A DNA stretch of 64,000 nucleotides from Sulfitobacter undariae (lineage in GTDB: Bacteria > Pseudomonadota > Alphaproteobacteria > Rhodobacterales > Rhodobacteraceae), in assembly GCF_014196805.1 (NCBI RefSeq), contig NZ_JACIEI010000014.1, positions 1 to 64,000 of the forward strand, written 5' to 3'. A program made the position numbers and the translations under genes. Under the pieces are notes generated by a model that did no database searches, was not told the origin of the DNA, and saw nothing but the letters and a program-made list of their open reading frames with translations. Shown piece by piece: positions 7,272 to 56,158 of this stretch. Positions within the stretch are counted from its first letter, which is position 1. Every line of letters begins with the position of its first letter.

Positions 7272-10200
7272 ATGAGTGTCGATATTTCCACGAACAGCCT
7301 CTATGAATATAATGGCGATCTTACTTCTCTGCTGAACCTGTCTATTCTCCCCGATGTCTCCGGCCCTATGTCAGGCACCATAACTGATGATAACGGGCTA
7401 CTGGGTACAGGCACCCCAACCACAGTCACTATTGGTGGTGTGGAATCCGAAATTGTTTACATCGGTGCCGGAACAGTTTCTCTCACCATCGCGTTCATCA
7501 CGCTCGACAGTCGCGAGATTGCGGCGTTTTCCATTGATGGTCAAATCTATCTCTACGCTCCTGACGGGTTTTCGTTGCTAGCCGGCGTCGTTGCGACCTT
7601 TGAATTTAATGAAGGCGTTCCCTTCAGGTTGTACGATGGGGCTGTGGATGGTTCGGATATTGGTCAAACCATGGGCTTTGGGTACTCCGATGTCGATGGT
7701 GACAGCATCACCACGGGCGCCGACACGATTTTTGGCAACGGGGGCTCGGATTACATTTCGGGGCTTGCCGGGAATGATCTGATTATCGGCGGCACTGGCA
7801 ACGATACGGTATTAGGTGGCACCGGAAATGACACTATTCACGGCGATGAAGGTGACGATTCTCTTTTAGGCGGCGACGGCGCGGATTCCATCGAAGGCGG
7901 CATCGGGGATGATACGATCGATGGTGGCGCTGGAAACGACACCCTCTATGGAGACGAAGGTAACGACACCATAAATGGCGGCGCGGGCGACGACGCCATT
8001 TATGGTGGCGACGGCAACGACGTTTGGCGTGATAGTGGTGAGAATGGGGGATCTGATACCGTTTATCTTGAGGACGGCGATGATTATGCTGAGGTTGGAT
8101 ACCTCATCACCGGTGTCCCCGAAATTGTTGATGGCGGCAGCGGGAATGACACCATCGCCTTGGATGCGGCGATTACAAACACCCTCGACTTGGACCTTAC
8201 CTTAAATGATGATGGGACCAGCAGCTCTACCTCGATTGGCAGCGTAATTTCCAATTTCGAAAATGTCCGCGGTAATGCGGGCGAAAACCAGATCGCGGGC
8301 AACATGCTCGGCAACCAAATCTGGGGTCTCGCGGGCGATGACTCTCTGAGTGGTGGTGGGGGCAGCGACACGCTTTCTGGTGGCGATGATAACGACACAA
8401 TTGATGGTGGCGATGGTAACGACCTCATCTATGGGGGCACGGGCGATGATAGCCTAACCGGCGGTGACGGTGATGATCAGTTTTTCTATTCTAACGGTGC
8501 CGATACAATTTCCGATTTTGGCACCGATGACAGTGGTTCTGTCGATGACGGCGACCAAACAAACAACGACTTCATCAACTTAAGTGGATTTTATAACGGC
8601 ACGAGCACGGCATCCGTAAACAGCGCCGACGCAGATCCAAGCAATGACTTTGCTGGGGCGCTAGAAATGTTGCGCGCAGACGCCGCAGACGGGCGCATCG
8701 ACGCCGTCATCGGGGGAGTAGATTACAGTGCCCTGATTGGCGACATAGATTTAACCCTGCTTTCAGGAGGGTCTGCCGTTACCGGGGCGGATTTGACCTT
8801 TGACAATACGGGTGTATCAGGCGCGGGCGTCGGATCAGACGGGATCGTCAGCGGAACAGGTGGCAACGACACAATTGACGTAAGCTATACCGGCGATCCT
8901 GACGGCGATATGGTCGATGCGAACGACAACGCCGCTGGTAACAATGATGATATTATTGATGCTGGCGATGGCGACGACTTTATTATCGCTGGTGAAGGGG
9001 ATGACTTCGTTCTGGGTGGCACCGGTGTCGATACTATTTATGGCGGCGACGGCAATGATCAGATCGATGCTGGCGAAGACGCGGGCATTGTGTCTGGCGG
9101 GGATGGCGGTGACGTCATTCAGGTTTTCGGCGGAACCCGTGCAGATGAGATCGACGGCGGCAGCGGGATCGACTATTTCTTTATCGTACAGGTTGATACC
9201 TCTGGCAGCGCAAATCTGGGTCTAATCGCGGGCGGCGATGGCAGTGACTTCATCGATGTCATTGATTCAGACATCGGCGAAATCTACGGCTCGGACATAA
9301 GCGGTACCGATCTTGGCGGTGCCGGATATGATACGTTTAACATTTATGGCGACAGTTCCGTTGACCTCATTTGGACCGGATATTCCAGTGATGAAACGGG
9401 CGGCACGGATTTCATCACCATCTCGGACACTTCCACTGTCGACCAAGTCTCGATCACCACGCTAGATCAAGACGTCGCCATCACAATCAACGACCAAGGA
9501 CAATTGGGGAATGATACGTCCAATCCGACCGTCGACGGCTGGAGTGGCGCACAGACAGTTACGGTCAACGACAACGGTGTGATTGACGGCTCTGGCTCGT
9601 TCGATTTAGGGGCTGGTAATGATACCATCACGTTTAACGACGCGTCGACACTCGACACAGTGCTGGATGCGGGCCTTGGCGATGACCAGATCGCATTTCA
9701 GGGCAATGCCACTGCCCAAGCCAATGTGCTGGGCGGCGATGGCAATGATGTCATCATCTTCGCCGGCACCGCCACAACCACAGGTAACATCCAAGCAGGC
9801 GTGGGCGATGACCTGATCTTTGCAGGTATCTCGGATGACGTTATTTACGGCGATTCAGGCAATAACACCCTTTCTGGCGGTAGCGGCGATGATACGATCT
9901 ACAGCGGTACGGGTGACGACGAGGCCCTTGGTGGCAGCGGCGACGACGTGTTCATTGCCACGGGTGCGCTATCGGACAATGATACCATCACAGGCGGTGA
10001 ATCCGGCGAAACCACTGGCGATACGATCGATTATTCTGGCGTTACCGATAACCTGACGGTTGCCTACTCTGCGCTTGAGACCGGCACGATCTCTGGCGGG
10101 GCCGGTACGCATACCTTCAGTGAAATCGAGAACCTCATCTTGGGCAGCGGCGACGACACGGTTGTCGGGGCTGCGGGTGCTGACAACATCGATGGCGGCG

Positions 10201-40623: not shown

Positions 40624-41886
40624 TCAGGAGGACGCGGCTTTATCCCTAGGTTTCAGTTGTGCGGTCCCAAACCAACTGAATGCGATCATCAAAGCAGCGG
40701 CAGCCAGACAAAACGGCAGCCCTCCTATTTGATAGGTTAGCCCCGATAGAACTGTTCCCACCAAACGCCCCGCCGCATTGGCCATATAGTAAAATCCCAC
40801 GTCCATTGTGACCCGCTTTGCATCGGTGAAGCTGAGGATCAGAAACGAATGCAGCGCAGAGTTCACGGCAAAAATACCGCCAAAAGCCAATAGCCCTAGA
40901 ACAATAGTAACCGTGAGCGCGACAGAAGGTTCTGGCGTAAACCAAACCAAAGCAGCGAGAGTTGCAGGCACAAGGATCAGCACCCCCACCCATATCTTGG
41001 CCAGTGCCAAAATCTCTACCTCACTGCGGGACGCAGCCCTGAGGATACGCGGCGCCCATCCTTGCACAATCCCATAAAGGATCGTCCAAACCGCCATAAA
41101 GGTGCCGATCATAAAGAATGCTGCGCGGTTACCCTCTTCACTGCCATCCGACAAAACAGCGTAGAAATAGATGGGGATACCCACCACAAACCAAACATCA
41201 CGCGCCCCAAACAGAAACAGCCGCGCGGCACTCAGCCAATTGATGTTGCGATTTTTCGAAAAGACTTCGGAAAACTTGGCGTCTTTACGCCCCACAGGCA
41301 GACCAGATGGCATCCCGATCACCACAGCGACCAAGATGACAAATAGAATGGCCGCCATACTGAGCACTGAAGGCACAAAACCAAATGCCGCCAGCAAAAC
41401 CGCCCCCAGCAAAAAGCCACAGCCTTTGACTGCGTTTTTTGACCCCGTCAAAACCGCGACCCAGCGAAACAACCCGCCGCCCTCGGTTGGTGCTAGGATC
41501 TTCACCGCACTTTTGGAGCTCATCTTGGCCAAGTCCTTGGCCACACCCGATGCGCCTTGCACCAGCATCACAAAGACAACCGAGGCCGTGATCCCCCAAC
41601 TTGGATCAAGCTGCGCCAACGCCAGCAGCGCGACCACCTGCAAGGACAACCCAGCATACAGCGTCGCAGTCAGCCCGAACCGTGCGGCAATCCAGCCCGC
41701 AGACAGGTTGGTGATCACGCCCGCAATTTCATAAAGCACAAACAGGTAGGCCAATTGCACAGGTGAAAAGCCAAGCGTGTGAAAATGCAGCAGCACCAAC
41801 ATCCGCAGCGCGCCATCGGTCAACATAAACGCCCAATAGGCCGCTGTTACAGTGATATAGGCCGCAAATCCGTCAGGGCGTGTCAC
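40624..41886 (-). CDS. arsJ: ArsJ-type organoarsenical MFS exporter
   Basis: 420 residues, about twelve membrane helices (first near [20 protein letters not shown]). It is always paired with a GAPDH gene in known systems, as here by an ATGA overlap. ArsJ expels 1-arseno-3-phosphoglycerate, the unstable product formed when GAPDH uses arsenate instead of phosphate. It is the third gene of arsRC-gapdh-arsJ. The location immediately upstream of pstS, the main arsenate entry route, fits detoxification. Confidence 0.88.
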
Positions 41887-42881
41887 AGCTTGCCGCCCAC
41901 CATAAGCGCGACATCCACAAGGCGGTGCGCATAGCCGTATTCATTATCATACCACGCATAGATTTTCACCTGCGTACCATTCACAACCATCGTTGAAGGC
42001 GCATCAATAATACTGCTGCGCGTATCATTGGTATAATCGGATGACACCAAAGGCCGCTCTTCATAGCCAAGGATGTTTTTCAACGACCCCTCAGCGGCGG
42101 CTTTGAACAGGCTGTTCACCTCCTCAACCGTAGTTTCACGCGCCATCTCAAACACGCAATCGGTGATAGAGGCATTCAGCAAGGGCACCCGCACCGCATG
42201 GCCGTTCAACTTACCTTTCAATTCGGGATAAATCAGCGTGATCGCTGTGGCAGAGCCTGTTGTCGTCGGAATCAAGTTCGTCAAAGCCGACCGTGCACGC
42301 CGCAGGTCTTTGGCAGGGCGATCTACAATTGTTTGGGTATTGGTGACATCGTGAATTGTCGTTATCGACCCATGTTTAATGCCGATCCCCTCCAGCAGCA
42401 CCTTCACAATTGGCGCAAGACAGTTGGTGGTACAGCTTGCTGCTGTGATGATCTGATGTGTGTCGGGATCATAGGTTTCATCATTCACGCCGTAGACGAT
42501 ATTGGCAGTTGGCCCGTCCTTGACTGGAGCGGATACAATCACTTTTTTCACACCAGCGGCAAAATACGGGGCCAGTTTGGCTTGGGTTTTGAACGCCCCC
42601 GTGCAATCAATCACGACGTCCACACCTTCCAGTGGAAGCTGCGCCAGATCACGGGTGGCGACCACGGGAATACGCGTGCCGTCAATTGTGACGGACGTGT
42701 CATCTGACGAGAATTCCGCAGGCCAACGCCCATGGACGGAGTCGAATTCAAGCAAATGCGCATGCATCGCCGCATCCCCGACTGCGTCATTGATAAAGGC
42801 AACTTTTGCGCCTTTTTCTAACAAAGGGCGTAGGGCCAGTTTGCCCATGCGGCCAAGGCCGTTAATTGCATAAGTTGTCAT
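41883..42881 (-). CDS. ArsJ-associated glyceraldehyde-3-phosphate dehydrogenase
   Basis: 332 residues. It has the NAD-binding start [14 protein letters not shown], catalytic Cys 150 in [10 protein letters not shown], and the C-terminal WYDNEYGYA. In this context it should convert glyceraldehyde 3-phosphate and arsenate to 1-arseno-3-phosphoglycerate for export by ArsJ. Overlap of 4 nt at each end (with the ArsRC fusion and arsJ) makes a tight operon. It could also serve in glycolysis, but the arsenic context is stronger. Confidence 0.93.
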
Positions 42882-43729
42882 GGCGACACTCCTTGTTTGC
42901 CAGTATCTCTGCCGATCTCGTCGATTTCCAATTGCAACGCCCGACGCGACAGCGCCTCAAAAGGCAGCGTAGTGAATCTATTGATCCGGTTAGAAAGCAC
43001 AGCATATGTTTGCTGAAAAGCCAGCCGTTTTTCTGCCTCTGACCCTACCACCTTTACCGGATCAGGCAGGCCCCAATGCCCCGACACGGGCTGCCCCGGC
43101 CAAAGCGGGCAATCCTCATTTGCGGCAAGATCACAAACCGTAAAGACAAAATCCATTTGTGGCGCGTCGGCACCCTGGAATTCCTGTATATTTTTTGACC
43201 GTAACAGCGCCACTTCGTGACCGTTGGATTTTAGCATCTCAACTGCATATGGGTTCAGTTCAGACCGCTGTGCCACACCCGCCGAATGGGCGGCAAACCT
43301 GTCGCCTGCCATATCACGCAAGATCGCCTCGGCGAAAACAGAACGTGCAGAATTGCCTGTGCAGACAAACAGCACGTTAAATTTATGATCCTCCGCGCAG
43401 GCACCCAACTGTGCCAGCGCGTTGAATTCAGGCGGGCAAAGATCAGCGCGCCCGCCACAACAATCCATGAAAATGCCCGACACAACATCGCGAGCGGCTT
43501 GCAGGTTGACGCAGTATAGCAACCGCGTGCCATCGCGCCGCTGCGTGATCAAACCAACTTGGGTCAGCGCCGAGAGGTAAACCGAAGCGGTGCTGGCCTT
43601 CAGGGTCAAAATATCTGCTATTTCACCCGCAGGCAGTGCATCTGGGCAGCGCCGCATGAGCAATCGAAAAACCGCCATCCGCTGCGGGTGACTGAGGGTC
43701 GCAAGCCGATCTGTGAGTATTAATTCCAT
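42878..43729 (-). CDS. ArsR-ArsC fusion: arsenic sensor plus arsenate reductase
   Basis: 283 residues. Residues about 1-90 form an ArsR winged helix ([39 protein letters not shown]), with a Cys cluster at 90, 91 and 98 (DCC and DLC) that could bind arsenite. Residues about 115-255 form a low-molecular-weight phosphatase/arsenate reductase with CTGNSARS (Cys 123, Arg 129). One protein therefore carries sensing and reduction. It is the first gene of the arsenate operon, starting immediately beside an inverted repeat, with no visible ribosome-binding site, so the transcript may be leaderless. Confidence 0.93.
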
Positions 43730-43776: not shown

Positions 43777-44919
43777 TCACCCCACCCGCGCTCCTTTGCT
43801 CCAGACGCCACGGATCAACGGTGTTTTCCCATGCAGCCTGACCCGCAGCAGATCGCCTCGTTTGCCTGCCTTCACCTGCCCACGGTCCTTCAGGCCACCC
43901 GCCTTGGCCGGATTATGGGTGACACAGGCAATTGCGCGTGGCAAATCCTGCCAGACATCCGCCAGCGCAAATGCAGAAAGCAACAGCGCCGCTGGAACGT
44001 AATCGGACGACACGATATCCAGCAAGTCTGCTTTTGCCAGTTCCAAGGCAGACACATTGCCCGAATGTGACCCGCCACGAATGATATTTGGTGCCCCCAT
44101 CATCACCGATATACCACGCTCACGGCAGGCTTGCGCTGCCTCAACCGTTGTCGGAAATTCGCCAAACCGCACCCCGTTGACGAGCGAGGTTTGAACCTGC
44201 TCTGCGGTGGTATCATCATGGCTCGCCAGCACAGCCCCGTATCGGGCCGCCTCGGCCACCGCGCCCGCCTCGTGACGTGCGCCATTTTTACGGTGCAGTT
44301 CCTTGAGGTTGGCAACGTGCTCGTCAAATTCCGCGTCGTTCAGGCCGCGTTTCTTTGCAACATAGGTCTTAAGCGCACTCAAATCGCGGAATTGGCGCTG
44401 GCCTGGTGTGTGGTCCATCAGGCTGACGATGCCCACGCGGTCTTCTGGCCCAAAAAGCGCCATCTCCTCCAGCAAAGTCTCCGAGCAGATTTCAGCACGC
44501 AAATGCAAAAAATGGCTGATCCGAAACAATCCAGCGGCACGCGCCTCTAGAAGTTCATTCGCTAAATTACGGGCATAGGCATCATAACGTGCTTTGCCAC
44601 CGTGAATGGAGCCGACGCGCAGCGCATCAAATACCGTGGTGATCCCCGTTGAAGCCAACTCTCCATCATGCGCAATCAACGCTGCCAGATGTGGCCAATC
44701 GACTTCTGGTCGCGGCTCGATGTGACGCTCCAGATTATCTGTATGCAGCTCCACCAGACCCGGCAGCACATAATCGCCCTCACAATCAACCGCACCCGTT
44801 GGGACGTAATCGCCCTCAACGATTTCAGTGATCACGCCGTCAATAGCGGTCACGCGGCCATACATGACACGATCAGGTAAAACGATCTGCGCATTCGCAA
44901 GGCAGACGTTGCCAGACAT
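43777..44919 (-). CDS. phnM: PhnM: ribose-phosphonate triphosphate diphosphatase
   Basis: 380 residues of the amidohydrolase superfamily. In the C-P lyase pathway it removes pyrophosphate from alpha-D-ribose 1-methylphosphonate 5-triphosphate. Metal-site motifs: ELHTDNLERH, ASHDDTT, and MMGAPNIIRGGSHSG. ATG 44919 (MSGNVCLANAQIVLPD) is chosen because it matches the family N-terminus. The frame stays open to 45078 but only reaches a GTG and an ATG (44970) lacking ribosome sites. It lies 209 nt from phnN and has its own Pho-box-like sites. Confidence 0.92.
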   Translation of the reverse strand: MSGNVCLANAQIVLPDRVMYGRVTAIDGVITEIVEGDYVPTGAVDCEGDYVLPGLVELHTDNLERHIEPRPEVDWPHLAALIAHDGELASTGITTVFDALRVGSIHGGKARYDAYARNLANELLEARAAGLFRISHFLHLRAEICSETLLEEMALFGPEDRVGIVSLMDHTPGQRQFRDLSALKTYVAKKRGLNDAEFDEHVANLKELHRKNGARHEAGAVAEAARYGAVLASHDDTTAEQVQTSLVNGVRFGEFPTTVEAAQACRERGISVMMGAPNIIRGGSHSGNVSALELAKADLLDIVSSDYVPAALLLSAFALADVWQDLPRAIACVTHNPAKAGGLKDRGQVKAGKRGDLLRVRLHGKTPLIRGVWSKGARVG

Positions 44920-44994
44920 GTCAGTGTCATCTACGTCGGCCTCAGGGTTCGCGGCAAAATGGGAACTCATGTTATATACTCGCTTCGTAATAGG

Positions 44995-45128: not shown

Positions 45129-45689
45129 TTAATGCGCTCCACAGGTCACCTCCTGTGTGCGCAACGCCTCAACCGCCGCCAAAACAGTGTCATCCAATGC
45201 CCCGTCATTTGAAACGGAAATGACATTCAATCCAGCAGGCAACGGTTTCACAGCCTGCAACAACCGCTTTTCGATCTCAGCCGTTGTTTCACGCCCCCTG
45301 CCCGACAGACGTGCCGCCAGCGTTTGCGCAGATGCGGTAATCTGCAACACGATAAGAGTGGGAAACGCCTGTGATGCCTCGATCAGAACGCCACGCGATA
45401 GGTTTGCAAGGCAGGTGGCACCCTTTTGCACATCAGCCTGTGCAGTGACAGGCACACCGTAAAGCAAATCATGTGCCCCCCAATGAAGGCAAAATGCGCC
45501 TTGCTTTACCATGACGCGAAAGACATCGGGGCTGACTGCATCAAAATCCTCCCCGCCCAATTCTGCTGCGCGGGTGATTGTCCTACGTACCAGATTGATG
45601 TCGGGCATCGCGGCGCAAATACCTGCCATCACGCTGTCTTTGCCAACACCCGAGGGGCCGACGACAGCAATAAGGCGCCCCCCGCTCAT
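45129..45689 (-). CDS. phnN: Ribose 1,5-bisphosphokinase PhnN
   Basis: 186 residues, a guanylate-kinase-like P-loop kinase (GPSGVGKDS) with lid/substrate motifs RRTITRAAELGGEDFDAVS and LHWGAHDLLYGV. It phosphorylates ribose 1,5-bisphosphate to PRPP, the final step of the C-P lyase route. Starts in ATGA overlap with phnL. phnP, which makes its substrate, is absent from the window. Confidence 0.93.
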   Translation of the reverse strand: MSGGRLIAVVGPSGVGKDSVMAGICAAMPDINLVRRTITRAAELGGEDFDAVSPDVFRVMVKQGAFCLHWGAHDLLYGVPVTAQADVQKGATCLANLSRGVLIEASQAFPTLIVLQITASAQTLAARLSGRGRETTAEIEKRLLQAVKPLPAGLNVISVSNDGALDDTVLAAVEALRTQEVTCGAH

Positions 45690-46369
45690 GCTGCCGCCTG
45701 CGGAGAAAACCCTGTCACGTCGATCTCACGGTCACACACACGCGCACGGGCCGCTTCGTCGTGGAAAATCCCGATGATCGCCGCCCCCCGCGCTTTCGCG
45801 TCCTCGATCAATTCCAGAACCACGGCACGGTTTGTCGCATCAAGACTGGCAGTCGGTTCATCCAACAACATTGCGGGGAATTGATGGGCAAAGCCGCGTG
45901 CAATGTTCACGCGCTGCTGTTCACCACCCGAAAACGTAGTGGGCGACAACCCCCATAGGGTCTGCGGTATGTTGAGGCGCTCCAACAACTCCTGAGCGCG
46001 GGCTTTTGCCTTGTCTGCTGGCGTGCCGATTTTCAGCAAAGGCTCCGCCACCACATCCAATGTCGGCACACGTGGCACCACACGCAAGAACTGACTGACA
46101 TACCCCATGACCTCGCGGCGCACACGGATCACCTCGCGCGGTTGGGCCTGCACCAGATCGACGTCACCCACACGAATGACCCCGCTTTGCGCCATATAGT
46201 TCCCATAAATCATCCGCATTAGGGTCGATTTACCCGAACCAGATGACCCCGTCAGTGCCACACATTCACCAGCGGCAACAGCAAAGGATACATCTGTCAA
46301 AACATCAATCACTGCCGCACCCTGATTGTGCAGCGTGAAGGTTTTATACACGTTTTCTAGTTCAATCAT
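45686..46369 (-). CDS. phnL: C-P lyase ABC-type subunit PhnL
   Basis: 227 residues. ABC ATPase with Walker A GSSGSGKST, signature FSGGEQQR, Walker B AMLLDEPTASLD and IFHDEA (in place of the usual HD context). In the C-P lyase system PhnL works with PhnGHI to form the ribose-phosphonate triphosphate and is not a transporter. Starts 10 nt after phnK with a GGTGAG ribosome site. Confidence 0.93.
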   Translation of the reverse strand: MIELENVYKTFTLHNQGAAVIDVLTDVSFAVAAGECVALTGSSGSGKSTLMRMIYGNYMAQSGVIRVGDVDLVQAQPREVIRVRREVMGYVSQFLRVVPRVPTLDVVAEPLLKIGTPADKAKARAQELLERLNIPQTLWGLSPTTFSGGEQQRVNIARGFAHQFPAMLLDEPTASLDATNRAVVLELIEDAKARGAAIIGIFHDEAARARVCDREIDVTGFSPQAAA

Positions 46370-46378
46370 GATCTCACC

Positions 46379-47155
46379 TCAGACTTGCAGAACCGAGCTG
46401 ACCAGCAGCTGGGTATAGGGATGTTGCGGGTCGTCCAACACTTGGTCGGTTAACCCGTTTTCAACAACTTGCCCCGATTTCATCACCATCAAACGGTCAG
46501 CCAACAGGCGTACCACAGCAAGGTCATGCGTGACGATGATCGCCGACAGCCCCATGTCGCGCACCAATCCACGCAGCAAATCCAGCAGACGCGCCTGCAC
46601 CGACACATCCAGACCACCTGTAGGTTCATCCATAAACACCAGTCGCGGCCCCGTGACGAGGTTGCGGGCAATTTGCAAACGCTGCTGCATGCCACCCGAA
46701 AAGGTGGAGGGACGGTCGTCAATACGGCTGGAGTCGATCTCGACACGGCCTAACCAATCGGTAGCCTTATCGCGGATATCGCCATAATTCCGCGCACCCA
46801 CAGCCATCAAGCGTTCACCCACATTGCCGCCTGCACTGACGCCCATGCGCAGCCCATCGCGGGCGTGTTGATGGACAAAGGCCCAATCCGTACGGCTGAG
46901 CATTCGGCGCTCAGGCTCGGACATCGTGACCGTATCGCGGGGGCCATTTACGCGAGTGTCAAAAACCACCTCCCCCGCATCTGGCGTCAGATGCCCTGCC
47001 ATACAGTTCAGCAAGGTAGATTTGCCCGAGCCGCTTTCACCGACAATGCCCATCACCTCACCGGGGAACAGATCAAACGACACGTTTTCGCAGCCGATGT
47101 GGTTGCCATAAGTCTTGGCGATTTTACGCACACTCAGCAGAGGTTGATCGGTCAT
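46379..47155 (-). CDS. phnK: C-P lyase ABC-type subunit PhnK
   Basis: 258 residues. ABC ATPase with Walker [10 protein letters not shown], signature FSGGMQQR, Walker B LVFMDEPTGGLDV and VTHDLAV. PhnK binds the PhnGHIJ core complex and is required for C-P cleavage in vivo. The ATG overlaps phnJ by 4 nt. Confidence 0.94.
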   Translation of the reverse strand: MTDQPLLSVRKIAKTYGNHIGCENVSFDLFPGEVMGIVGESGSGKSTLLNCMAGHLTPDAGEVVFDTRVNGPRDTVTMSEPERRMLSRTDWAFVHQHARDGLRMGVSAGGNVGERLMAVGARNYGDIRDKATDWLGRVEIDSSRIDDRPSTFSGGMQQRLQIARNLVTGPRLVFMDEPTGGLDVSVQARLLDLLRGLVRDMGLSAIIVTHDLAVVRLLADRLMVMKSGQVVENGLTDQVLDDPQHPYTQLLVSSVLQV

Positions 47156-48003
47156 GCTGCGTCCTTTCCTTTGTGGCCTGCATTCTGGCGCGCTTCACAG
47201 AAATCCGTATCCGAGCAAACAAACATCCGTCCGCCTGCGTCATCTACAATCACCTCATCCAAATAGCTGTCTTCCGCAGCGCAAAGGCCGCAGGGGTGAT
47301 CCGCCTTGGATGGGTCAAACGGGTGGTCTTCAAAATCCAGACTGGTGACACGGGTATAAGGCGGCAGCGCATAAATCCGTTGCTCGCGACCTGCGCCAAA
47401 CAACTGAATCGCAGGACTGTTGGAGAGCTTCGGGTTATCGAACTTCGGAATCGGAGACGGGTCCATCACATAACGCGCCTCAACCTTAACCGGATAAGCA
47501 TAAGCGGTTGCGATATGCCCGTGACGGCTGATGTCTTCATACAGCTTCACATGCATCAACCCGTATTCCTCAAGGCTGTGCATCTTGCGCGTCTCACTTT
47601 CGCGCGGTTCAAGAAAACGCAACGGCTCGGGGATCGGCACTTGGTAAACAAGGATCTGCCCCTCGCCCAGATCCGCCTCTGGGATACGGTGGCGGGTCTG
47701 GATCACAGTTGCTTCTGCCGTCTTGGTCGTCGTCGCCACTCCCGCTGTGTGTTCAAAGAACTTGCGGATCGAGACAGCATTTGTGGTGTCATCCGCCCCT
47801 TGGTCAATAACTTTGAAACGGTCCTCTGGTGTCAGCACCGCCGCAGATACCTGCACTCCGCCTGTACCCCAGCCATAAGGCATCGGCATTTCACGGCTGG
47901 CGAAAGGCACCTGATACCCAGGGATCGCCAGCCCTTTCAGGATCGCACGACGGATCATGCGTTTGGTCTGCTCATCCAGATAAGCAAAATTATAATCGGT
48001 CAT
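47152..48003 (-). CDS. phnJ: C-P lyase radical-SAM enzyme PhnJ
   Basis: 283 residues. The catalytic subunit cleaves the C-P bond of ribose 1-alkylphosphonate 5-phosphate by radical chemistry. It keeps the distinctive cysteine pattern CX2CX21CX5C (CGLC, then FVC, then FC) that binds the 4Fe-4S cluster and the catalytic Cys. The family N-terminus MTDYNFAYLDEQTKRMIRRA sets the start at 48003, coupled to the HAD gene by ATGA. Confidence 0.96.
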   Translation of the reverse strand: MTDYNFAYLDEQTKRMIRRAILKGLAIPGYQVPFASREMPMPYGWGTGGVQVSAAVLTPEDRFKVIDQGADDTTNAVSIRKFFEHTAGVATTTKTAEATVIQTRHRIPEADLGEGQILVYQVPIPEPLRFLEPRESETRKMHSLEEYGLMHVKLYEDISRHGHIATAYAYPVKVEARYVMDPSPIPKFDNPKLSNSPAIQLFGAGREQRIYALPPYTRVTSLDFEDHPFDPSKADHPCGLCAAEDSYLDEVIVDDAGGRMFVCSDTDFCEARQNAGHKGKDAA

Positions 48004-48599
48004 AATATCCCTCGTGAGACAAGCTTTTGCTCTAGATCGTCCGCGCCAACGAAATGGATCGCATCCATCCCTACGAACTTTGCGCCGTCGCAATTCGCGG
48101 CAAGGTCATCAACAAAAATGCAATCCTTCGCGTCCAAACCAAACTCCTCTAGGCAAAGTTTAAAAATGGCGAGGTCAGGTTTCACCAGCTGATGTTCGCC
48201 CGACACAATTGTAGCTTTGATCAAGCGCACCGCAGTGCTAGCCGCCTTTACAGCCTCAAAGGACTCGCGCGCGGCATTGGTGATCCCATAGAGACCAACA
48301 CCTTTTACATGCAGGCGTTCGATGATTTCGGTTGTGCCAGCCACAAGCGTACTATGGGCTGGCACTAATCCCGCCGCATAAGCTTCGTAAACATGCACGT
48401 ATTCGGGATGCTGCACCTCCATAAGAGCGATGCCCTCTTCCCAACTGCGGCCACGGTCTTGTTCTTTGTTCCATGTCGAAAATCCGGTTTTTTCAAAGAC
48501 ATCTTTCATCTCGTCTTCGGTTTCGAACAGATGAGACAACGCAAGAAACGGGCGCCATTGAATGACAACATTCCCGTAATCGAAGATTACATTTTTCAC
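48000..48599 (-). CDS. HAD-superfamily hydrolase inside the phn operon
   Basis: 199 residues. HAD motifs: nucleophile loop FDYGNVV (YihX-like, the usual second Asp is Gly), motif II GITNA, motif III Lys in VKPDLAIFK, motif IV FVDDLAANCDGA. Starts with GTG in a 4-nt overlap with phnI (GTGA) and is coupled to phnJ by ATGA, so it is translated with the core C-P lyase genes. It is not part of the E. coli phn operon. It may remove a phosphate from a pathway intermediate or from a damaged product; phnP is missing here, but replacing a cyclic phosphodiesterase with a HAD enzyme is only a guess. Confidence 0.88.
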   Translation of the reverse strand: MKNVIFDYGNVVIQWRPFLALSHLFETEDEMKDVFEKTGFSTWNKEQDRGRSWEEGIALMEVQHPEYVHVYEAYAAGLVPAHSTLVAGTTEIIERLHVKGVGLYGITNAARESFEAVKAASTAVRLIKATIVSGEHQLVKPDLAIFKLCLEEFGLDAKDCIFVDDLAANCDGAKFVGMDAIHFVGADDLEQKLVSRGIL

Positions 48600-49684
48600 T
48601 CATTCGCCTCCTGCTTTGGTGTGGCACCTGCATCGCGGCGTAGCTTGCGCACCAATTCCAGCTCGGACTGAAAGTCGACATAATGGGGCAGCTTGATGTG
48701 CTCCAAAAATCCGGTCGCTTGGATGTTATCCGAATGATAAAGAACAAATTCTGCGTCTTGCGCTGGGGCGCCAACATAATCCTCGCCCAATTCCTCCCAC
48801 CGCAAGGCGCGATCGACCAAAGCCATAGAAATCGCTTTGCGCTCGGTCTGACCAAAGACCAAACCGTACCCACGGGTAAATTGCGGCGGTTCGGTTTTAG
48901 AGCCTTTGAACTGGTTAACCGTTTCACATTCCGTCACGGTAATTTCGCCAATATCGATGGCAAAGCCCAATTCGGGGATGTCCATTTCAACCACCACATC
49001 ACCGATGCGCAATTCGCCCACAAAAGCATGGTTACGGGCATAGCCGCGTTGGGTGGAGTAAGCCATCGAGAGAGTAAATCCCTCATCCGCACGCGCCAAT
49101 GCTTGCAACCGCAAAGCGCGGTCCGCAGGCATTTCCAACGGTTCACGCGTCAAATCGCGAGGCGTTGTATCATCATGCGGCGCCTCTTCGATCAACCCTT
49201 CACGGTTAAGAAACCCCGTGACATGGGGTACTTTTGCCTGTGCTGCTTCACGCTGGGGCGCTTGCGCCACTTCACCATCAGCGGCCAGTTTAAAATCCAA
49301 CAAACGGTGGGTGTAATCAAACGTCGGCCCAAGGATTTGGCCCCCCGGCACATCCTTGAACGTTGCTGACACACGGCGGTCACAGGTCATATTGGCTGTG
49401 TCAATTGGCTGCGACGCGCCAAAACGTGGCAGAGTCGTGCGATAGGCACGGATCAGGAAAATCGCCTCGATCAGATCACCGCGCGACTGTTTGATCGCCA
49501 AAGCGGCAAGGTCAGGATCATACAGCGATCCTTCGGCCATCACACGGTTTACCGCCAGCGCCAGTTGCTCACGGATTTGCGGGACGGACAGTTCCATCAC
49601 AGACGTATCGCCGCGCCGTTCTTCTGCTAACCACGCATGAGCGTTTTCAATCGCGCGTTCGCCGCCTTTTACTGCAACATACAT
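48596..49684 (-). CDS. phnI: C-P lyase core subunit PhnI
   Basis: 362 residues. Nucleosidase-type subunit that, with PhnGHL, displaces adenine from MgATP with the phosphonate. N-terminus MYVAVKGGERAIENAHAWL, the LARADEGFTLSMAYSTQRGYARNH segment and C-terminal HSDNIQATGFLEHIKLPHYVDF are family features. Overlaps phnH by TGATG. Confidence 0.95.
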   Translation of the reverse strand: MYVAVKGGERAIENAHAWLAEERRGDTSVMELSVPQIREQLALAVNRVMAEGSLYDPDLAALAIKQSRGDLIEAIFLIRAYRTTLPRFGASQPIDTANMTCDRRVSATFKDVPGGQILGPTFDYTHRLLDFKLAADGEVAQAPQREAAQAKVPHVTGFLNREGLIEEAPHDDTTPRDLTREPLEMPADRALRLQALARADEGFTLSMAYSTQRGYARNHAFVGELRIGDVVVEMDIPELGFAIDIGEITVTECETVNQFKGSKTEPPQFTRGYGLVFGQTERKAISMALVDRALRWEELGEDYVGAPAQDAEFVLYHSDNIQATGFLEHIKLPHYVDFQSELELVRKLRRDAGATPKQEANE

Positions 49685-50247
49685 CAGCGCACCTCTGTTG
49701 ATCTGGGGAGCGCGGCAAGCCGGTCACCGCAAGTGAAAAAGAAATCTAAGCCAAGCGGGAATTGCGCCGCGTTTGTTTGAAAAGCAGAAACATCAGGCAC
49801 AGCAAAATGCGCCTCATCCTGAATACCCGGCCCTGTGAGGGTGGCCCCTTCAAGACGCAACTCAGGCATTTCCACCACCAGAGTGGCAGAACGGTCGGGA
49901 TATTCCGAGGTCCCGATTGGGAAAACGGACAGCGGCATCAGCGCCTCCCATGTGCCAAAGGCATAGGCGCAATCGGAGGCTGCGCAAATGGGTGCGCCCG
50001 TGTGAAACGTGATCCAGTCCCGCACAGCGCAGCAATCCACGTCACCCGCCAAATAGATCGGCGTATCCGTGTCGCATAGCGTCAACAGTACAACACCCGC
50101 CGCAACCGACAACGGCGCAGGCGGCTGTGCATCTTGAAGCACATGCACGGTCGCGGGGCGCGCCATTGCCTCCATCACACCGCGAAAGGCAGTTGCGGAT
50201 TGAAGTGCGGGGTTACTGAAACCCCCTTCTAAGGATTGCGTATCCAT
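49684..50247 (-). CDS. phnH: C-P lyase core subunit PhnH
   Basis: 187 residues. Family features: GGFSNPALQSATAFRGVMEAMARPG-like start (here GGFSNPALQSATAFRGVMEA then MARP), and the region GAPICAASDCAYAFGT. Dimeric component of the PhnGHIJ complex with a PLP-transferase-like fold but no known catalysis alone. Coupled to phnG and phnI by 1-nt overlaps. Confidence 0.93.
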   Translation of the reverse strand: MDTQSLEGGFSNPALQSATAFRGVMEAMARPATVHVLQDAQPPAPLSVAAGVVLLTLCDTDTPIYLAGDVDCCAVRDWITFHTGAPICAASDCAYAFGTWEALMPLSVFPIGTSEYPDRSATLVVEMPELRLEGATLTGPGIQDEAHFAVPDVSAFQTNAAQFPLGLDFFFTCGDRLAALPRSTEVR

Positions 50248-50702
50248 CAGTCTTCGCCCCTTACCATGGTAAAGAAATCCACCTTTGTGGCGGCTGCTTT
50301 TGCTGCGCGTGTGGTGCGGGCTTCTGTGCGCTCGGCCTCCAGCACATTCAGCACGGCAACCCGTATGTCAGCCGCATTTTCCGTTTGCATCAGTGCATCT
50401 ACCAATGCCGCCGCTTCGGCACATGCTTTACGGCGACCTTGAACATACCCGTGACCCACAGTGCCATCTGCCAAGCGCAAGCTACAGCGCGTCACCGTCA
50501 CTTCGCCGAGGTTAAAAGGCGATCCAGTGGCACCGGCACGGCCTCGCACCATGACGCTGCCAATCTCTGGCATGCGCAGCCATGTGAAATCTGGCCGCGC
50601 CATGACCTGATCCAAAAGGGCCCCCACGCGCCCCTCTGGCGACTTGGCCAAAGTGCCTAACCATTCCTTGCGGGGGTTTATATCGTCGATGGTATCTTTC
50701 AT
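50247..50702 (-). CDS. phnG: C-P lyase core subunit PhnG
   Basis: 151 residues, first gene of the C-P lyase operon. Conserved block RMPEIGSVMVRGRAGATGSPFNLGEVTV-like region (MPEIG, VRGRAG, FNLGEVTVTRC) and HGYVQGRRKACAEAAALVDAL. Structural subunit of the core complex. Divergent from phnF with an 82-nt gap that contains the promoter. Confidence 0.94.
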   Translation of the reverse strand: MKDTIDDINPRKEWLGTLAKSPEGRVGALLDQVMARPDFTWLRMPEIGSVMVRGRAGATGSPFNLGEVTVTRCSLRLADGTVGHGYVQGRRKACAEAAALVDALMQTENAADIRVAVLNVLEAERTEARTTRAAKAAATKVDFFTMVRGED

Positions 50703-50784: not shown

Positions 50785-51507
50785 TTGCGTAACACACAGC
50801 CCCCCCGCACCCCGATCTGGCGCGCCATTGGCAACGCTTTGCGCCAAGACATATCCGAGGGGCGTTATGCCCCTGGTGATAAACTCCCGACCGAGGCCGC
50901 ACTGGCAGACCGTTTTGGCGTGAACCGCCATACGGTGCGGCATGCGCTGTCTGATCTGGTGGAACAGGGGCTGGTGCGCACAAGGCGCGGTGCAGGTGCA
51001 TTTGTGGCTGCGATGCCCACTGATTATCCTATCGGCGAACGTGTGCGGTTTCGCGAAAACCTGTTGGCCGCAGGGCGCACGCCTGAAAAACGGCTGCTTT
51101 TGATTGAAGAACGCGCTGCCACGCTGGGGGAAGCAAAGGCGCTAAATGTGGCTGAGGGCGAAGTGATCTGCGCCTATCACGGAATTTCGTTGGCGGATGG
51201 GCAACCCGTTGCGGTGTTTGAGAGCCTATTCCCTGCCAGCCGCCTGCCCGGCATTGCAAATGCGCTGTCCGAAAATCACGGCGTAACCGCAGCCCTGACC
51301 CAGATCGGGGTTGCCGATTACATCCGTGTTTCCACACGGCTAACGGCAGTGTCGGCCACCGCGACGCAAGCCTTACATTTGCAAGTTAGAGAAGGTGATC
51401 CGCTGTTGCGCAGCACTGGTGTGAACTTAGACACAGATGCCCAGCCCGTCGAATACGGGCGCACCTTTTTCGCGGGTGACAGGATCACACTCACGCTTGA
51501 AAGTTAG
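50785..51507 (+). CDS. phnF: Phosphonate operon regulator PhnF (GntR/UTRA)
   Basis: 240 residues. HutC-type GntR regulator: N-terminal winged helix (IGNALRQDISEGRYAPGDKLPTEAALADRFGVNRHTVRHALSDLVEQGLV-region) and C-terminal UTRA ligand domain (AEGEVICAYHGISLADGQPVAVFESLFP). Starts with TTG 50785; no in-frame ATG is upstream and AGAGAAG lies 11 nt before it. Its position between the two phn operons, divergent from phnG, supports a repressor role. Its stop overlaps that of the convergent transferase gene. Confidence 0.9.
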   Translation: MRNTQPPRTPIWRAIGNALRQDISEGRYAPGDKLPTEAALADRFGVNRHTVRHALSDLVEQGLVRTRRGAGAFVAAMPTDYPIGERVRFRENLLAAGRTPEKRLLLIEERAATLGEAKALNVAEGEVICAYHGISLADGQPVAVFESLFPASRLPGIANALSENHGVTAALTQIGVADYIRVSTRLTAVSATATQALHLQVREGDPLLRSTGVNLDTDAQPVEYGRTFFAGDRITLTLES

Positions 51508-52121
51508 CTCTCGTATTTATCCAGAAAAGCTTCGGCAGACAGCGTACGGAAATCAGGAAGAGTTTCGCGCAGCTTGTCATGGGACCAATCCCACCACGCC
51601 AGTGTGATCATCCGCTCGGCAATCTGTGTCGGCTGGCGATAGCGCAGATGCCGTGCGGGCGTGCCAGCGACGATCTCATAAGGCCCCACATCACGGGTAA
51701 CCACACTGCCCGACGCCACAACAGCGCCGTCTGCCAATGTGACCTCTGGCTTGATCATTGCCCCGTTGCCAATCCATGTATCGTGACCAACGTAAGCGCG
51801 CCGCGACTTGCGATGTTCAAAAAACGCCTCGTCGTTCTGTGCGTCATCCCAATAATCGGCAGAGCGATATAAGAAGTGATGGCACGCCGCCGTGTGCAGC
51901 GGGTGATCCGTAGCACCGATGCGGGTAAAGCTGGCGATGTTCGAGAATTTTCCAACTGTCGCATTGGCAATATCGGCATAACGATCACAATAGCTGTAAT
52001 CACCAAATTCACTATGCGCGATACGGCTGCCTGCACCAATTTCAACGAAACGGCCAAAAGTGGTATCCGTCAGGCTGCACCCCTCGTGGATAAAGGGGGT
52101 TTCAGATTTAAGACGTGCCAT
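51504..52121 (-). CDS. Phn-associated hexapeptide-repeat acetyltransferase
   Basis: 205 residues of the left-handed beta-helix acyltransferase group found with phn genes (phn_thr-fam type). Hexapeptide repeats (FGRFVEIGAGSRIAH, GDYSYCDRYADIAN, GHDTWIGNGAMIKPEVTLADGAVVASGSVV) and the VAGTPARHLRYR cap are clear. Probably uses acetyl-CoA on a small amine or alcohol; a detoxifying role on aminophosphonates, like PhnO, is possible but unproven. ATG 52121 overlaps the phnE2 end by 14 nt, so it is the last gene of phnCDE1E2. Confidence 0.85.
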   Translation of the reverse strand: MARLKSETPFIHEGCSLTDTTFGRFVEIGAGSRIAHSEFGDYSYCDRYADIANATVGKFSNIASFTRIGATDHPLHTAACHHFLYRSADYWDDAQNDEAFFEHRKSRRAYVGHDTWIGNGAMIKPEVTLADGAVVASGSVVTRDVGPYEIVAGTPARHLRYRQPTQIAERMITLAWWDWSHDKLRETLPDFRTLSAEAFLDKYES

Positions 52122-53448
52122 GACTATCTTTTCCACCTATCAGACGGCCCCGCAGCCATCCCGAAAACCAATCCATCAACATCACCACACCGATGATCAA
52201 CACGATATAATAGGCAACTTCTTCCCAATCCTTTTGGGTTTGGATCGCCTGTGTCAGCATCAAACCGATACCGCCACCTGTGATGGCACCAATGATTGTC
52301 GCCGAACGGGTGTTCGACTCGAGGAAATAGAGAACCTGCGCCAGCAGCACGGGCACAATCTGCGGGATCACGCCAAAGCGGTAGCGTTGCAGCGGTTTGG
52401 CACCTGTAGAACTGACACCTTCGATCTGTTTTTCGTCTACATTTTCCAGAGCCTCGGAAAAGATTTTACCAAAAGTGCCCATGTCGGTAACAAGGATCGC
52501 AAGCGCCCCTGTCAGCGGACCAGGGCCAAAGGCGCGGGCCAGAACAACTGTCCAGATCAACGCATCCACACCACGCACAAAATCAAACAACCGCCGCGCC
52601 ACGCCGCGCACCAGCATGAAGGGAGAGAAGTTCTTGGCGGCAAGGAAAGCCAGCGGCAGGGCAATGATCGCAGCGCCAAACGTACCAAGGAACGCCATCA
52701 GGATCGTTTCACCAATGGCCCACGCCACATCCTTATGACGCCACATACCGTTGTTCCAGAAATCCGAAATCGCGCCGGAAATATTGCTGCGCGTCGGATC
52801 AATGCGGCTGCCGAACACAATCTCGGGCAGGCTGTGGCCACTATACGGACTATCCAGCGTGAACCAGAACAGCTCCCAACCCGCGAAGTAACGATACACT
52901 TCGGTACGTGAGCGCGTCATGCTCAGGCGTCCTGCATCTGTTGTGACAGTCATCCGTTGTTCGGAAAGGTTGATCCAATCTGGAATAGGCTCTTGCAGAT
53001 TGGTCTGGATGATACCGTCGACCAGTTGCGCAGTGATCGTGCCAAAATCAGGGATCTCAAAAACCGTCGCATTGTCAGGTAGAAAACGCACAACATAGCC
53101 ATCGTCCAGATCAATAGTCACGTTTTCGGGATCGGCGACTTCTACCCACGCAGGGTTCGTGCCTTCGGCATAGGCACCCTTACGCTCGCCCTCAATCGCG
53201 GAAGACGTACCGCCACGGCGGTTGTCGCGGGTGATGTGAACTTTGTATGACCAGCTATCCGATGCAAGAATACCCGCATTTTCAAGGCTTGCGCGTTTCG
53301 CAAGCCCCAACACATCAAACGAAATAGCGATATACAGCAGATAAGCGAGGATCACCGCTGGCACAGCAAAGGCTGTCAGGCGTTTGCGGCGAAACGCGCC
53401 AGAGGCGGAAAATTTGGTTTGGTCCAGCATTGCAGTCGCGTCGGTCAT
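52108..53448 (-). CDS. phnE: Phosphonate ABC permease PhnE, long copy
   Basis: 446 residues. One N-terminal membrane helix is followed by about 190 extra residues, then the PhnE permease core (ETILMAFLGTFGAAIIALPLAFLAAKNFSP region, GPLTGALAILVTDMGTFGKIFSEALENVD, EGVSSTGAKPLQRYRFGVIPQ EAA loop). The periplasmic insert is unusual relative to E. coli PhnE. Pairs with the shorter PhnE as the transmembrane dimer. Starts 1 nt after phnE1 ends. Confidence 0.92.
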   Translation of the reverse strand: MTDATAMLDQTKFSASGAFRRKRLTAFAVPAVILAYLLYIAISFDVLGLAKRASLENAGILASDSWSYKVHITRDNRRGGTSSAIEGERKGAYAEGTNPAWVEVADPENVTIDLDDGYVVRFLPDNATVFEIPDFGTITAQLVDGIIQTNLQEPIPDWINLSEQRMTVTTDAGRLSMTRSRTEVYRYFAGWELFWFTLDSPYSGHSLPEIVFGSRIDPTRSNISGAISDFWNNGMWRHKDVAWAIGETILMAFLGTFGAAIIALPLAFLAAKNFSPFMLVRGVARRLFDFVRGVDALIWTVVLARAFGPGPLTGALAILVTDMGTFGKIFSEALENVDEKQIEGVSSTGAKPLQRYRFGVIPQIVPVLLAQVLYFLESNTRSATIIGAITGGGIGLMLTQAIQTQKDWEEVAYYIVLIIGVVMLMDWFSGWLRGRLIGGKDSHGTS

Positions 53449-53449
53449 C

Positions 53450-54322
53450 TTATTGGCCCTTGATCATTTTAGTGCGGTAGCGGCTGGACAGTTGGTCAAA
53501 GAACACGATCGTGCCAAACAGCAGAATGAAGATTGCAGCGGCTTCGTCAAAACGCCCCGGCCCCCAAGACATGGCATTGCGCAGCTCTGCACCAATACCG
53601 CCCGCCCCGACGAAACCCAGAATGGCAGAGGCCCGGATGTTGATTTCAAAACGCAGCAACGTATAGCTCAGAAAGTTTGGTGCGACTTGCGGCAGCACGC
53701 CCAACCACATCCGTTGCGACCAAGTGGCCCCCGTTGAGGAGAGCCCTTCAACAGCTTTGAGATCAGCGTTTTCAGCAACCTCTGAGTAAAGCTTACCCAA
53801 TGCGCCCGCAGTATGGAACGCAATCGCGATCATCGCAGGCACCGGTCCACCGCCTAGAATAAAGATCAGCACCAATGCGATCACAATTTCAGGCACCGCA
53901 CGCATGATGTCCATGATCCGGCGGAACACAGGAATCAAGCGCGGCCATTTCGCCAACCCGCGTGTAGAGAGCAGTGCAAGGACCAAGCCCATCATTGCAC
54001 CGATAAGTGTCGAGGCTGCCGCGATGTTAATCGTCTCTAACAAGGCGGGAAAGAAATCGACCATCAAGGCTGGCAAATTCGCACGCTTTTCCCATGCCTC
54101 TGACAGAACGTCAGCAGGGAAGTCGAAAATTTGATGCCACCCCGCCCAAAAACCGCCCGCATTGCGATTATCAGCGACAACAAAGCCCGACACCATCAAC
54201 AGAACGAAAATGCCAAGAGTCAGACCACCGTACATCCGGCGGCGGCGCACTTGGACCAAATAGCTCTCTTGAATTTGGGTGATCTGGGACGGGGTTGCTC
54301 CCGTTAGCGCGGCATCAGTCAT
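53450..54322 (-). CDS. phnE: Phosphonate ABC permease PhnE, short copy
   Basis: 290 residues, about six membrane helices: EAA-type loop AEVAENADLKAVEGLSSTGATW region and VGAGGIGAELRNAMSW. Homologous to the core of the following longer PhnE. Preceded by an intrinsic terminator after phnD. Confidence 0.93.
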   Translation of the reverse strand: MTDAALTGATPSQITQIQESYLVQVRRRRMYGGLTLGIFVLLMVSGFVVADNRNAGGFWAGWHQIFDFPADVLSEAWEKRANLPALMVDFFPALLETINIAAASTLIGAMMGLVLALLSTRGLAKWPRLIPVFRRIMDIMRAVPEIVIALVLIFILGGGPVPAMIAIAFHTAGALGKLYSEVAENADLKAVEGLSSTGATWSQRMWLGVLPQVAPNFLSYTLLRFEINIRASAILGFVGAGGIGAELRNAMSWGPGRFDEAAAIFILLFGTIVFFDQLSSRYRTKMIKGQ

Positions 54323-54337
54323 GGGTCACTCCAAGTG

Positions 54338-54364
54338 AAAAGGGGCAGCGTCATGCGCTGCCCC
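54338..54364 (-). terminator. Intrinsic terminator between phnD and phnE
   Basis: A perfect 9-bp stem (GGGGCAGCG / CGCTGCCCC) with a 5-nt loop is followed by TTTTCAC on the minus strand, 19 nt after the phnD stop. It resembles the elements after pstS and the peptide-binding gene. Confidence 0.85.
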
Positions 54365-54383
54365 GATCTGGAAGGTTTGTGGC

Positions 54384-55289
54384 TTAGTTGCCCTGAACAG
54401 CTTTGCGTACTGCGATAATGTTCTTATACGCGTCATGGGTGATCGGCTCAAAGCCCGCAGTGTCGCCAGCTGCCATGTTATAGGCGCACTCTGGGTCTTT
54501 TTCCTGCAAGCCCGCAAGGAATGCGGTCACATCGGTTTTAACCTTTTCAGGCAGACCACGGCGCAGAACAATTGGGCCTTCTGGGATGATCTCAGATTTC
54601 CAGATTTCAACCAGATCGTTCATGTCGACCAAACCTGAGTCAGATGCTTTGCGCAGCGCCCCCGAGTTGTAACCGTCCAGCCAGTCACCCTGACCGTCAG
54701 CCCATGTCACGCCTGCGTCAACATCACCATTGTTTACCGCAACGATTGTCTGCTCATGGCCGCCCGTAAAGCGAACTTCGCCGAAGTAGTCACCGGATTC
54801 CATTGTCGCACCCACAGCTTTGGGGATCTCAACCGACGGGATCAAGAAACCGGAAGTGGAGTTTGGATCACCAAAGCCGAATACTTTGCCCTTCATATCG
54901 GCCAGCGATGTGATGCCGCTATCCGCGCGTGCAAACCCGATTGAGTGGTAACCATAAGAACCATCAAGGTTGGTTTTAACCATAACAACATCAACCGCTT
55001 CTGGGTCTGTCATATATGTCTTGGCATAAGCAGAAGCGCCCAACCATGCCATATCAATAGAACCACCCAAGAGACCCTGGATCACGCCGTCATAGTCTGC
55101 AGGTGTGAAAACTTTGGTTTCAACGCCCAGCAATTCTTCAACATAAGCGCGAACACATTCGTTTGAGTTCATGCGGTCTTGAGCGTTTTCACCGCCAAGA
55201 ATACCAATGCGGAATTCGGTGATGTCTTGCGCTTGGGCAGCACTGACCAGCGCTGTTGTCGCCAGTACGAAAGCAAGTGTCTTTTTCAT
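54384..55289 (-). CDS. phnD: Phosphonate-binding periplasmic protein PhnD
   Basis: 301 residues with signal peptide MKKTLAFVLATTALVSAAQA. PhnD-family features: FRIGILGGENAQDRM, MAWLGASAYA, FGFGDPNSTSGFLIPS. Binds alkylphosphonates, probably 2-aminoethylphosphonate or similar, for the PhnCE importer. Second gene of the operon after phnC (53 nt gap). Confidence 0.94.
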   Translation of the reverse strand: MKKTLAFVLATTALVSAAQAQDITEFRIGILGGENAQDRMNSNECVRAYVEELLGVETKVFTPADYDGVIQGLLGGSIDMAWLGASAYAKTYMTDPEAVDVVMVKTNLDGSYGYHSIGFARADSGITSLADMKGKVFGFGDPNSTSGFLIPSVEIPKAVGATMESGDYFGEVRFTGGHEQTIVAVNNGDVDAGVTWADGQGDWLDGYNSGALRKASDSGLVDMNDLVEIWKSEIIPEGPIVLRRGLPEKVKTDVTAFLAGLQEKDPECAYNMAAGDTAGFEPITHDAYKNIIAVRKAVQGN

Positions 55290-55342
55290 CGTAGTCTCCG
55301 TGATAGGAATTGGCCCGCAGAATTGCGGAAAAGATAACTGGC

Positions 55343-56158
55343 TCAGGCGTAGGTTTCAGCAGCGTATGTCTGCGACCTGTCCAGTGTTTCGATTTCGGTG
55401 GATGTTGCGGCTTCGGAAAAATCCGCGCCTGCGCCGTAAATGTCGCGTGCAGCACCAGTGGTCAGTTGCTCTGGCGTGCCATCAAACACGACACGCCCGT
55501 CGCGCATGCCGATCACGCGGTCACAATAACGACGCGCAGTATCCAGCGTGTGCAGGTTGGCGATAACCATACGGCCATCTTCTTCGTGAATGCGGCGCAG
55601 GGCCTGCATGACGATTTGCGCGTTCATGGGATCAAGCGAGGCAATCGGCTCATCCGCCAGAATGATTTGCGGGTCTTGCATCAAGGCACGGGCAATCGCC
55701 ACACGCTGCTGCTGGCCACCAGAAAGCGCTTCTGCACGTTTCTCGGCCTGCTCGGCGATGCCAAGACGATCCAGAATTTCGATGGCTTTGTGAATGTCGC
55801 TGTCAGGGTACAGGTTGAACATCGTTGCCAGGGTTGAGCGACGGTTCAATGTGCCGTGTAATACGTTGGACACAACATCCATACGCGGCACCAGATTGAA
55901 CTGCTGGAAAATCATCGCACAGCGTGATTGCCAGTTGCGGCGTGCCGCACCTTTCAATCCGGTTATTTCCTGTCCTTCAAACGTGATGGAGCCAGAGGTA
56001 ACATCACTGAGGCAATTCAACGCACGCAGCAGCGTCGATTTACCCGCGCCAGAACGCCCGATCACACCAATCATCATTGAGCGATCAATGTTAAAGGACA
56101 CATTTTCAACGGCGGTCTTATCACCGAACCGCTTCGTTAACATTTGGACATCAAGCAT
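55343..56158 (-). CDS. phnC: Phosphonate ABC importer ATPase PhnC
   Basis: 271 residues. Walker [16 protein letters not shown], signature LSGGQQQR, Walker [14 protein letters not shown]. First gene of phnCDE1E2-transferase. AAGGGG lies 6 nt upstream of the ATG, and a Pho-box-like site lies farther upstream. Confidence 0.94.

Follow-up and report, generated by a model that had tools for sequence, protein, structure and literature searches.

A HAD hydrolase gene between phnI and phnJ encodes a probable optional helper of phosphonate breakdown in Rhodobacteraceae

What would a HAD hydrolase do in the middle of a C-P lyase operon, and does it take the place of a known step of the pathway? C-P lyase operons contribute to the phosphorus supply of marine bacteria and release methane from methylphosphonate. 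In the stretch of Sulfitobacter undariae DNA analysed here (64,000 nucleotides of contig C14, from a genome of 44 contigs and 3.85 Mb; referred to as the window), a gene for such a hydrolase occupies the junction, or slot, between phnI and phnJ. By our analysis, the encoded enzyme probably assists the phosphonate-breakdown pathway as an optional helper. The open-licence literature text that we searched yielded neither a paper on the phnI-HAD-phnJ arrangement nor a function for a HAD between these genes; operon drawings may show it.

The hydrolase gene and its cluster

The phn cluster of the window lies on the minus strand in the order phnC, phnD, phnE1, phnE2, hexapeptide transferase gene, phnG, phnH, phnI, HAD gene, phnJ, phnK, phnL, phnN and phnM, with a divergent phnF between the transferase gene and phnG. 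Pfam models identify phnG (50247..50702; PF06754, E 1.3e-51), phnH (49684..50247; PF05845, E 2.7e-55), phnI (48596..49684; PF05861, E 1.1e-165) and phnJ (47152..48003; PF06007, E 4.6e-143), and three further genes score above the cut-offs of their models: phnN, for ribose 1,5-bisphosphokinase (45129..45689; TIGR02322, 162.7 bits, cut-off 156), phnM (43777..44970; TIGR02318, 436.3 bits, cut-off 390.55), for which an internal ATG was chosen as the start of a listed ORF that extends to 45078, and the hexapeptide transferase gene of phn clusters (51504..52136; TIGR03308, 288.3 bits, cut-off 201.65). The ABC ATPase genes phnK (46379..47155) and phnL (45686..46369), both matching PF00005, were named by their order and by an annotated Qingshengfaniella cluster. 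The same cluster gave the names of the ORFs for the phnF regulator (50785..51507, plus strand) and the transporter genes phnE2, phnE1, phnD and phnC (52108..56158). An arsenate module follows directly after phnM (40624-43729, minus strand); it comprises a fusion of an ArsR-type HTH with an LMW phosphatase domain of the ArsC-like kind, an ArsJ-associated GAPDH (NF033735, 553.9 bits, cut-off 450) and ArsJ (NF033734, 537.2 bits, cut-off 400).

The HAD gene itself (48000..48599, minus strand) encodes 199 amino acids from a GTG start. Its start codon shares a GTGA with the phnI stop codon (48596..48599, minus strand; tcac on the plus strand), and its stop codon shares an ATGA with the phnJ start codon (48000..48003, minus strand; tcat on the plus strand). 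The overlaps on both sides that the original prediction described are thus borne out, and their geometry is that of co-translation: synthesis of the hydrolase would be coupled to that of PhnI and PhnJ.

By profile, the protein belongs to the HAD-IA group (TIGR01509, 44.6 bits, cut-off 29.4; PF00702, 42.6 bits, cut-off 26.4, E 1.2e-10), and it contains the Asp nucleophile, the Ser/Thr, the Lys and the acidic DD motifs (D7, G9, T107, K140, D164 and D165), with Gly instead of Asp at position +2 from the nucleophile. Membership in this family predicts phosphatase activity. The AlphaFold model has a mean pLDDT of 96.8, and a Foldseek search of the PDB with it placed E. coli YihX (2b0c) top by E-value (TM 0.74, 20% identity), with 3cnh (TM 0.77), other HAD proteins and soluble epoxide hydrolase as near-runners-up. 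The fold is therefore in keeping with the YihX-like group to which the protein had been assigned from its FDYGNVV loop; as proof of a sugar phosphatase the loop fails, since the score against the glucose-1-phosphatase equivalog NF006991 (40.4 bits) lies far below the cut-off of 295. Even the best NCBIfam match, to the epoxide-hydrolase N-terminal-like phosphatases of TIGR02247, stays below its cut-off (60.5 bits against 125.4).

The Gly at +2 would also suit a PhnX-like enzyme that has one specific phosphonate, or an ester of it, as its substrate and so broadens the substrate range of the operon, since some HADs that are not phosphatases likewise have no Asp at this position, and the hexapeptide transferase gene provides the cluster with another optional gene of unknown substrate. 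We regard this reading as highly improbable: the 50 PDB matches listed include YihX and the phosphatase domains of epoxide hydrolases but no PhnX, and there is no PhnX model among the 20 NCBIfam matches.

Recurrence and ancestry of the slot gene

The original prediction called for a survey of phnI-HAD-phnJ neighbourhoods, and in a sample of 248 Rhodobacteraceae genomes the arrangement recurs. PhnJ is present in 119 of these genomes and a homologue of the HAD (E 1e-10) in 192. Of the 119 phnJ genomes, 30 (about a quarter) have a HAD in the phnI/phnJ slot, as judged from the matches of one query sequence (E 1e-10), whose positions were compared by eye. Fetched regions confirm 28 of these cases; the others are G004 and G000, the genome of the window, and divergent slot HADs could hide in the 24 phnJ genomes outside the fetched set. 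The fetched set comprises 95 phnJ regions from 93 family genomes other than that of the window, and with 28 cases the HAD is the commonest occupant of the junction. These family counts come from a tally separate from the automated slot flag, which overlooked five slot HADs (L042, L056, L083, L097 and L113, flagged as HADelse). In two further family clusters (L039 and L063), a HAD lies near phnF rather than in the slot.

The overlaps recur with the gene. Although the junction script favours a 4-base overlap wherever one is possible, the phnI-HAD overlap is 4 bases in 27 of the 28 fetched loci, and so is the HAD-phnJ overlap (24 loci by script and, by eye, the ATGA of L069, L070 and L072). Among 35 tallied loci that have no slot HAD and a gap of less than 120 bases, 30 show a direct 4-base overlap of phnI with phnJ. 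The slot HADs are under purifying selection: dN/dS (NG86) is 0.06-0.23 in six of eight pairs, two of these six having dS above 2, and dS was not computable in the other two pairs. Since the slot HAD and its 4-base overlaps recur in relatives and dN/dS is low, the arrangement in the window does not reflect chance.

A gene at a recurrent position could still be a neutral or self-serving passenger, a HAD without a role in the pathway that settled in a junction tolerant of insertions. The junction does house other genes: DUF559 ORFs (four loci by Pfam, L044, L050, L110 and L124, and three by similarity, L057, L087 and L089), a glyoxalase-like ORF (L111) and a histidine phosphatase (L090; PF00300, 7423-7992) that is unrelated to the HAD. 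At least 15 of the 95 regions moreover have a CorA-like ORF between phnK and phnL, and on a tree of PhnI and PhnJ (94 loci) the presence of the slot HAD requires 23 changes, as scattered as under shuffled labels (mean 23.6). Against a passenger stand the rank of the HAD as commonest occupant, the exactness of its overlaps on both sides, its low dN/dS with conserved catalytic residues, and a tree in which one supported HAD clade consists almost entirely of slot genes (see below); we consider the passenger reading unlikely. The occupants also bear on what the slot is for, and they do so in both directions. The unrelated phosphatase of L090, although a single case, is an argument that the slot has a phosphatase role, whereas the DUF559 and glyoxalase-like occupants, which are not phosphatases, speak for a tolerant junction and against the phosphatase proposal.

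Two side observations concern these additional genes. The junction between phnJ and phnK of L070, a locus that also has a slot HAD, contains a 56% homologue of the L090 histidine phosphatase (8364-8933). Long ORFs are found between phnK and phnL in 21 of the 95 regions, and 15 of these loci make up a single similarity group; the CorA-like ORF, in L105 and other family clusters, encodes about 310-340 amino acids (L105: PF01544, E 1.2e-41).

Beyond the family, we fetched 60 of 61 phnJ regions from other alphaproteobacterial families (G407 was left out). None of the 60 has a slot HAD, and a HAD at another position was matched in L276 alone, weakly (41.8 bits) and upstream of phnG. Among the best 80 homologues of the HAD from a scan of genome contigs, 11 occupied the phnI-phnJ slot, including one from a Neomegalonema MAG, and the other 69 had no PhnG-PhnJ match in their flanks (up to 6 kb). 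Because so many of these homologues lack a flanking phn gene, the HAD family as a whole is mostly not phosphonate-specific, which counts against a dedicated role in this pathway. Loci L141 and L187 appear to come from the same organisms as genomes G030 and G124. A related HAD on pSymB of Sinorhizobium meliloti (L137) immediately follows mutY and is not near phn genes.

A tree of 115 HAD rows contains one supported clade (SH-aLRT 99) in which 31 of 32 rows are slot genes, and from this we conclude that most slot HADs share an origin. D7, T107, K140 and D164 are kept in all 31 of these main-clade proteins and D165 in 30. The HAD of the window falls outside the clade. It pairs with the unlinked HAD of L037/G228 (SH-aLRT 99) and is closest to that protein of G228 (47% identity), a genome with no PhnJ match. 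The neighbours of the window HAD are typical, PhnI and PhnJ having 84% mean identity to those of other slot loci, yet the HAD itself has 34% mean identity to the other slot HADs, which average 54% identity among themselves. It gives the largest residual when HAD distances are compared with PhnI/PhnJ distances (0.215; the next is 0.113), and with the window and L097 left out the two sets of distances correlate weakly (Mantel r 0.30, p 0.007, 27 loci). Several cap and loop positions differ as well, including a loop that reads ITNAARESFE in the window and is ITNWSAETWP-like in the main clade; because of these differences the window and main-clade HADs may not share a substrate, a point against the function proposed below.

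The slot of the window thus probably holds a HAD other than that of its relatives, and in-place replacement or independent recruitment would fit best. A single origin of all slot HADs was rejected: AU tests on an 86-row tree reject monophyly of the 38 slot rows, and still do so for the 37 that are left after removal of L157. Since unlinked rows inside the group add to the rejection, the tests do not separate gain, loss and relocation. In the 115-row tree, 42 branches are open, and the branch that joins the window and L037 HADs to the main group has a support of 83 and is not starred.

RcsF, PhnN and the tail of the pathway

No phnP had been seen in the window, and the hydrolase had accordingly been considered as part of a phnP bypass. 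The first of these observations extends to the whole genome, in which a search with the PhnP model gave a single match. It lies outside the window, on contig C26, and scores 35.4-54.5 bits where the cut-off is 272.25. This match is an MBL-fold ORF beside a TatD ORF (L001, 1027-2633) that other MBL models fit better. Genome lists that give phnP in all relatives, such as the one in PMC8774927 to the extent that its text is available, may count the MBL gene next to tatD. None of the 95 family regions and 60 class-level regions contains a match like E. coli PhnP.

What the genome does encode, on another contig, is RcsF (TIGR03223/DUF1045), a 2H-type phosphoesterase whose score of 239.9 bits is just below the cut-off of 248.95. 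Passages of PMC3840354 and PMC10574752 propose that RcsF carries out the PhnP step where a cluster has no phnP. Of the 119 genomes with phnJ, 118 have RcsF, among them all 30 with a slot HAD, as do 48 of the 129 without phnJ; in the other alphaproteobacterial families an RcsF-like protein lies nearby in 43 of 60 phn regions. Because RcsF tracks phnJ in this way, a missing phnP alone does not imply a missing step in these bacteria, and the survey separates the question of the HAD from that of phnP. The bypass was rejected as the main reading, since RcsF accompanies every slot HAD found. Replacement of PhnN was rejected too, PhnN being over its cut-off in 28 of the 30 slot-HAD genomes (the exceptions, G030 and G118, are fragmented assemblies). 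With RcsF and PhnN both alongside it, the slot HAD adds to a complete tail and replaces no step.

A narrower form of replacement, in which the HAD substitutes for PhnP or RcsF by opening 5-phosphoribosyl 1,2-cyclic phosphate, draws on the lack of a PhnP over the cut-off and on the whereabouts of RcsF: a copy linked to the phn cluster is rarer in regions with a slot HAD (14/25) than in those without (55/64; Fisher p 0.004; 6 of the 95 regions, without detected phnN, were dropped). On independent pairs (7 and 8 starred), however, this association is not significant (median p 0.25), and it hints at most that the HAD and linked RcsF are alternative states. HADs with the cap type of the window protein are known monoesterases, which weighs against the opening of a cyclic diester. 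Together with the presence of RcsF elsewhere in every slot-HAD genome, including that of the window, this makes substitution very unlikely.

Linked and unlinked copies are mixed in a tree of RcsF (76 rows, thinned from 142; 8 of 73 inner branches starred), which argues weakly against the unlinked copy being a separate housekeeping paralogue. RcsF may have a second role, given its occurrence in phnJ-less family genomes such as G055. G161 has a second PhnN match at a distance from the phn cluster, beside its unlinked RcsF (L283, on G161:C8). Finally, PhnJ exists in a divergent second form, which scores about 380 bits (L130, L131, L133 and others); 13 family genomes have it, and 12 of them also have the typical one.

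Proposed function and comparison with known systems

The reading that we favour, and hold tentatively, is that the slot gene encodes an optional, pathway-dedicated HAD-IA (YihX-like) phosphomonoesterase of the ribose-phosphate tail that replaces neither PhnP nor PhnN. The PhnP/RcsF step would yield alpha-D-ribose 1,5-bisphosphate, from which the hydrolase would, most likely, remove the anomeric 1-phosphate to give ribose 5-phosphate and Pi; the pathway leads to this compound and a YihX-like enzyme removes anomeric phosphates, and pathway logic makes it the most likely substrate. According to passages of PMC3463581, PhnN can convert ribosyl 1,5-bisphosphate to PRPP and the fate of its 1-phosphate in the E. 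coli pathway is called unknown. The proposed reaction would form a direct Pi-releasing branch, which would spare the cell the ATP consumed by PhnN and the longer route via PRPP and pyrophosphate. As a reasonable reading, the pathway-linked phosphatase of the original prediction is thus upheld by overlap geometry, recurrence in the family and a YihX-like fold. With 89 of 119 phnJ genomes lacking a detected slot HAD, the enzyme is dispensable, which counts against the proposal. A phosphatase co-translated with core subunits nonetheless makes a concrete, assayable candidate for turning phosphonate phosphorus into Pi.

The same enzyme could serve overflow or damage control instead, stripping the 5-phosphate or another phosphate from accumulating intermediates or dead-end analogues such as 5-phosphoribosyl phosphonate and the cyclic phosphate, to relieve toxicity and not to harvest Pi. 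The patchy presence of the gene fits an optional clean-up enzyme, HAD phosphatases are often promiscuous, as parts of PMC4251788 report, and dephosphorylated ribosyl phosphonates and ribosyl 1,2-cyclic phosphate are described in PMC3463581, in the text available, as appearing in the medium of E. coli. Removal of the 5-phosphate would, however, squander phosphonate phosphorus, and the preference of YihX for anomeric 1-phosphates (PMC4251788, in part), if shared by its relative here, would point to the other end of the molecule; clean-up is a realistic though less than likely explanation.

An extension of the favoured reading, possible but doubtful, is that the phnI/phnJ junction serves as a plug-in phosphatase slot that has seamlessly gained and lost its occupant many times, with genes from no fewer than two HAD lineages and, in one case, a histidine phosphatase, and that the HAD would be the missing ribose 1,5-bisphosphate 1-phosphatase of a PRPP-independent Pi branch.

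Among known systems, the main clade of slot HADs in Rhodobacteraceae is like the window HAD in position, 4-base overlaps and catalytic residues. The available text of PMC10734472 lists a haloacid dehalogenase, without a function, among the genes of HIMB59 phn genomic islands, and that of PMC9846622 lists a VOC protein, of a family different from the HAD, between phnI and phnJ of Nodularia spumigena. E. coli YihX (HAD4; PDB 2b0c and 8pno), characterized as a relatively specific alpha-D-glucose 1-phosphatase in the portion of PMC4251788 at hand, differs from the window HAD in sequence (about 20-23% identity, with NF006991 not reached) and in having its gene outside a phn operon, yet the two share the fold (TM 0.74), the FDxGNV loop, the Gly at +2 and the Lys and DD motifs. 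E. coli PhnP, an MBL-fold cyclic phosphodiesterase without sequence relation to the HAD, shares with the proposed enzyme a hydrolytic role in the tail of the C-P lyase pathway. RcsF, in turn, has an unrelated fold and occurs beside the HAD, not in its stead; like the slot HAD, it would be an accessory of C-P lyase clusters that acts in the ribose-phosphate tail, as passages of PMC3840354 propose for it.
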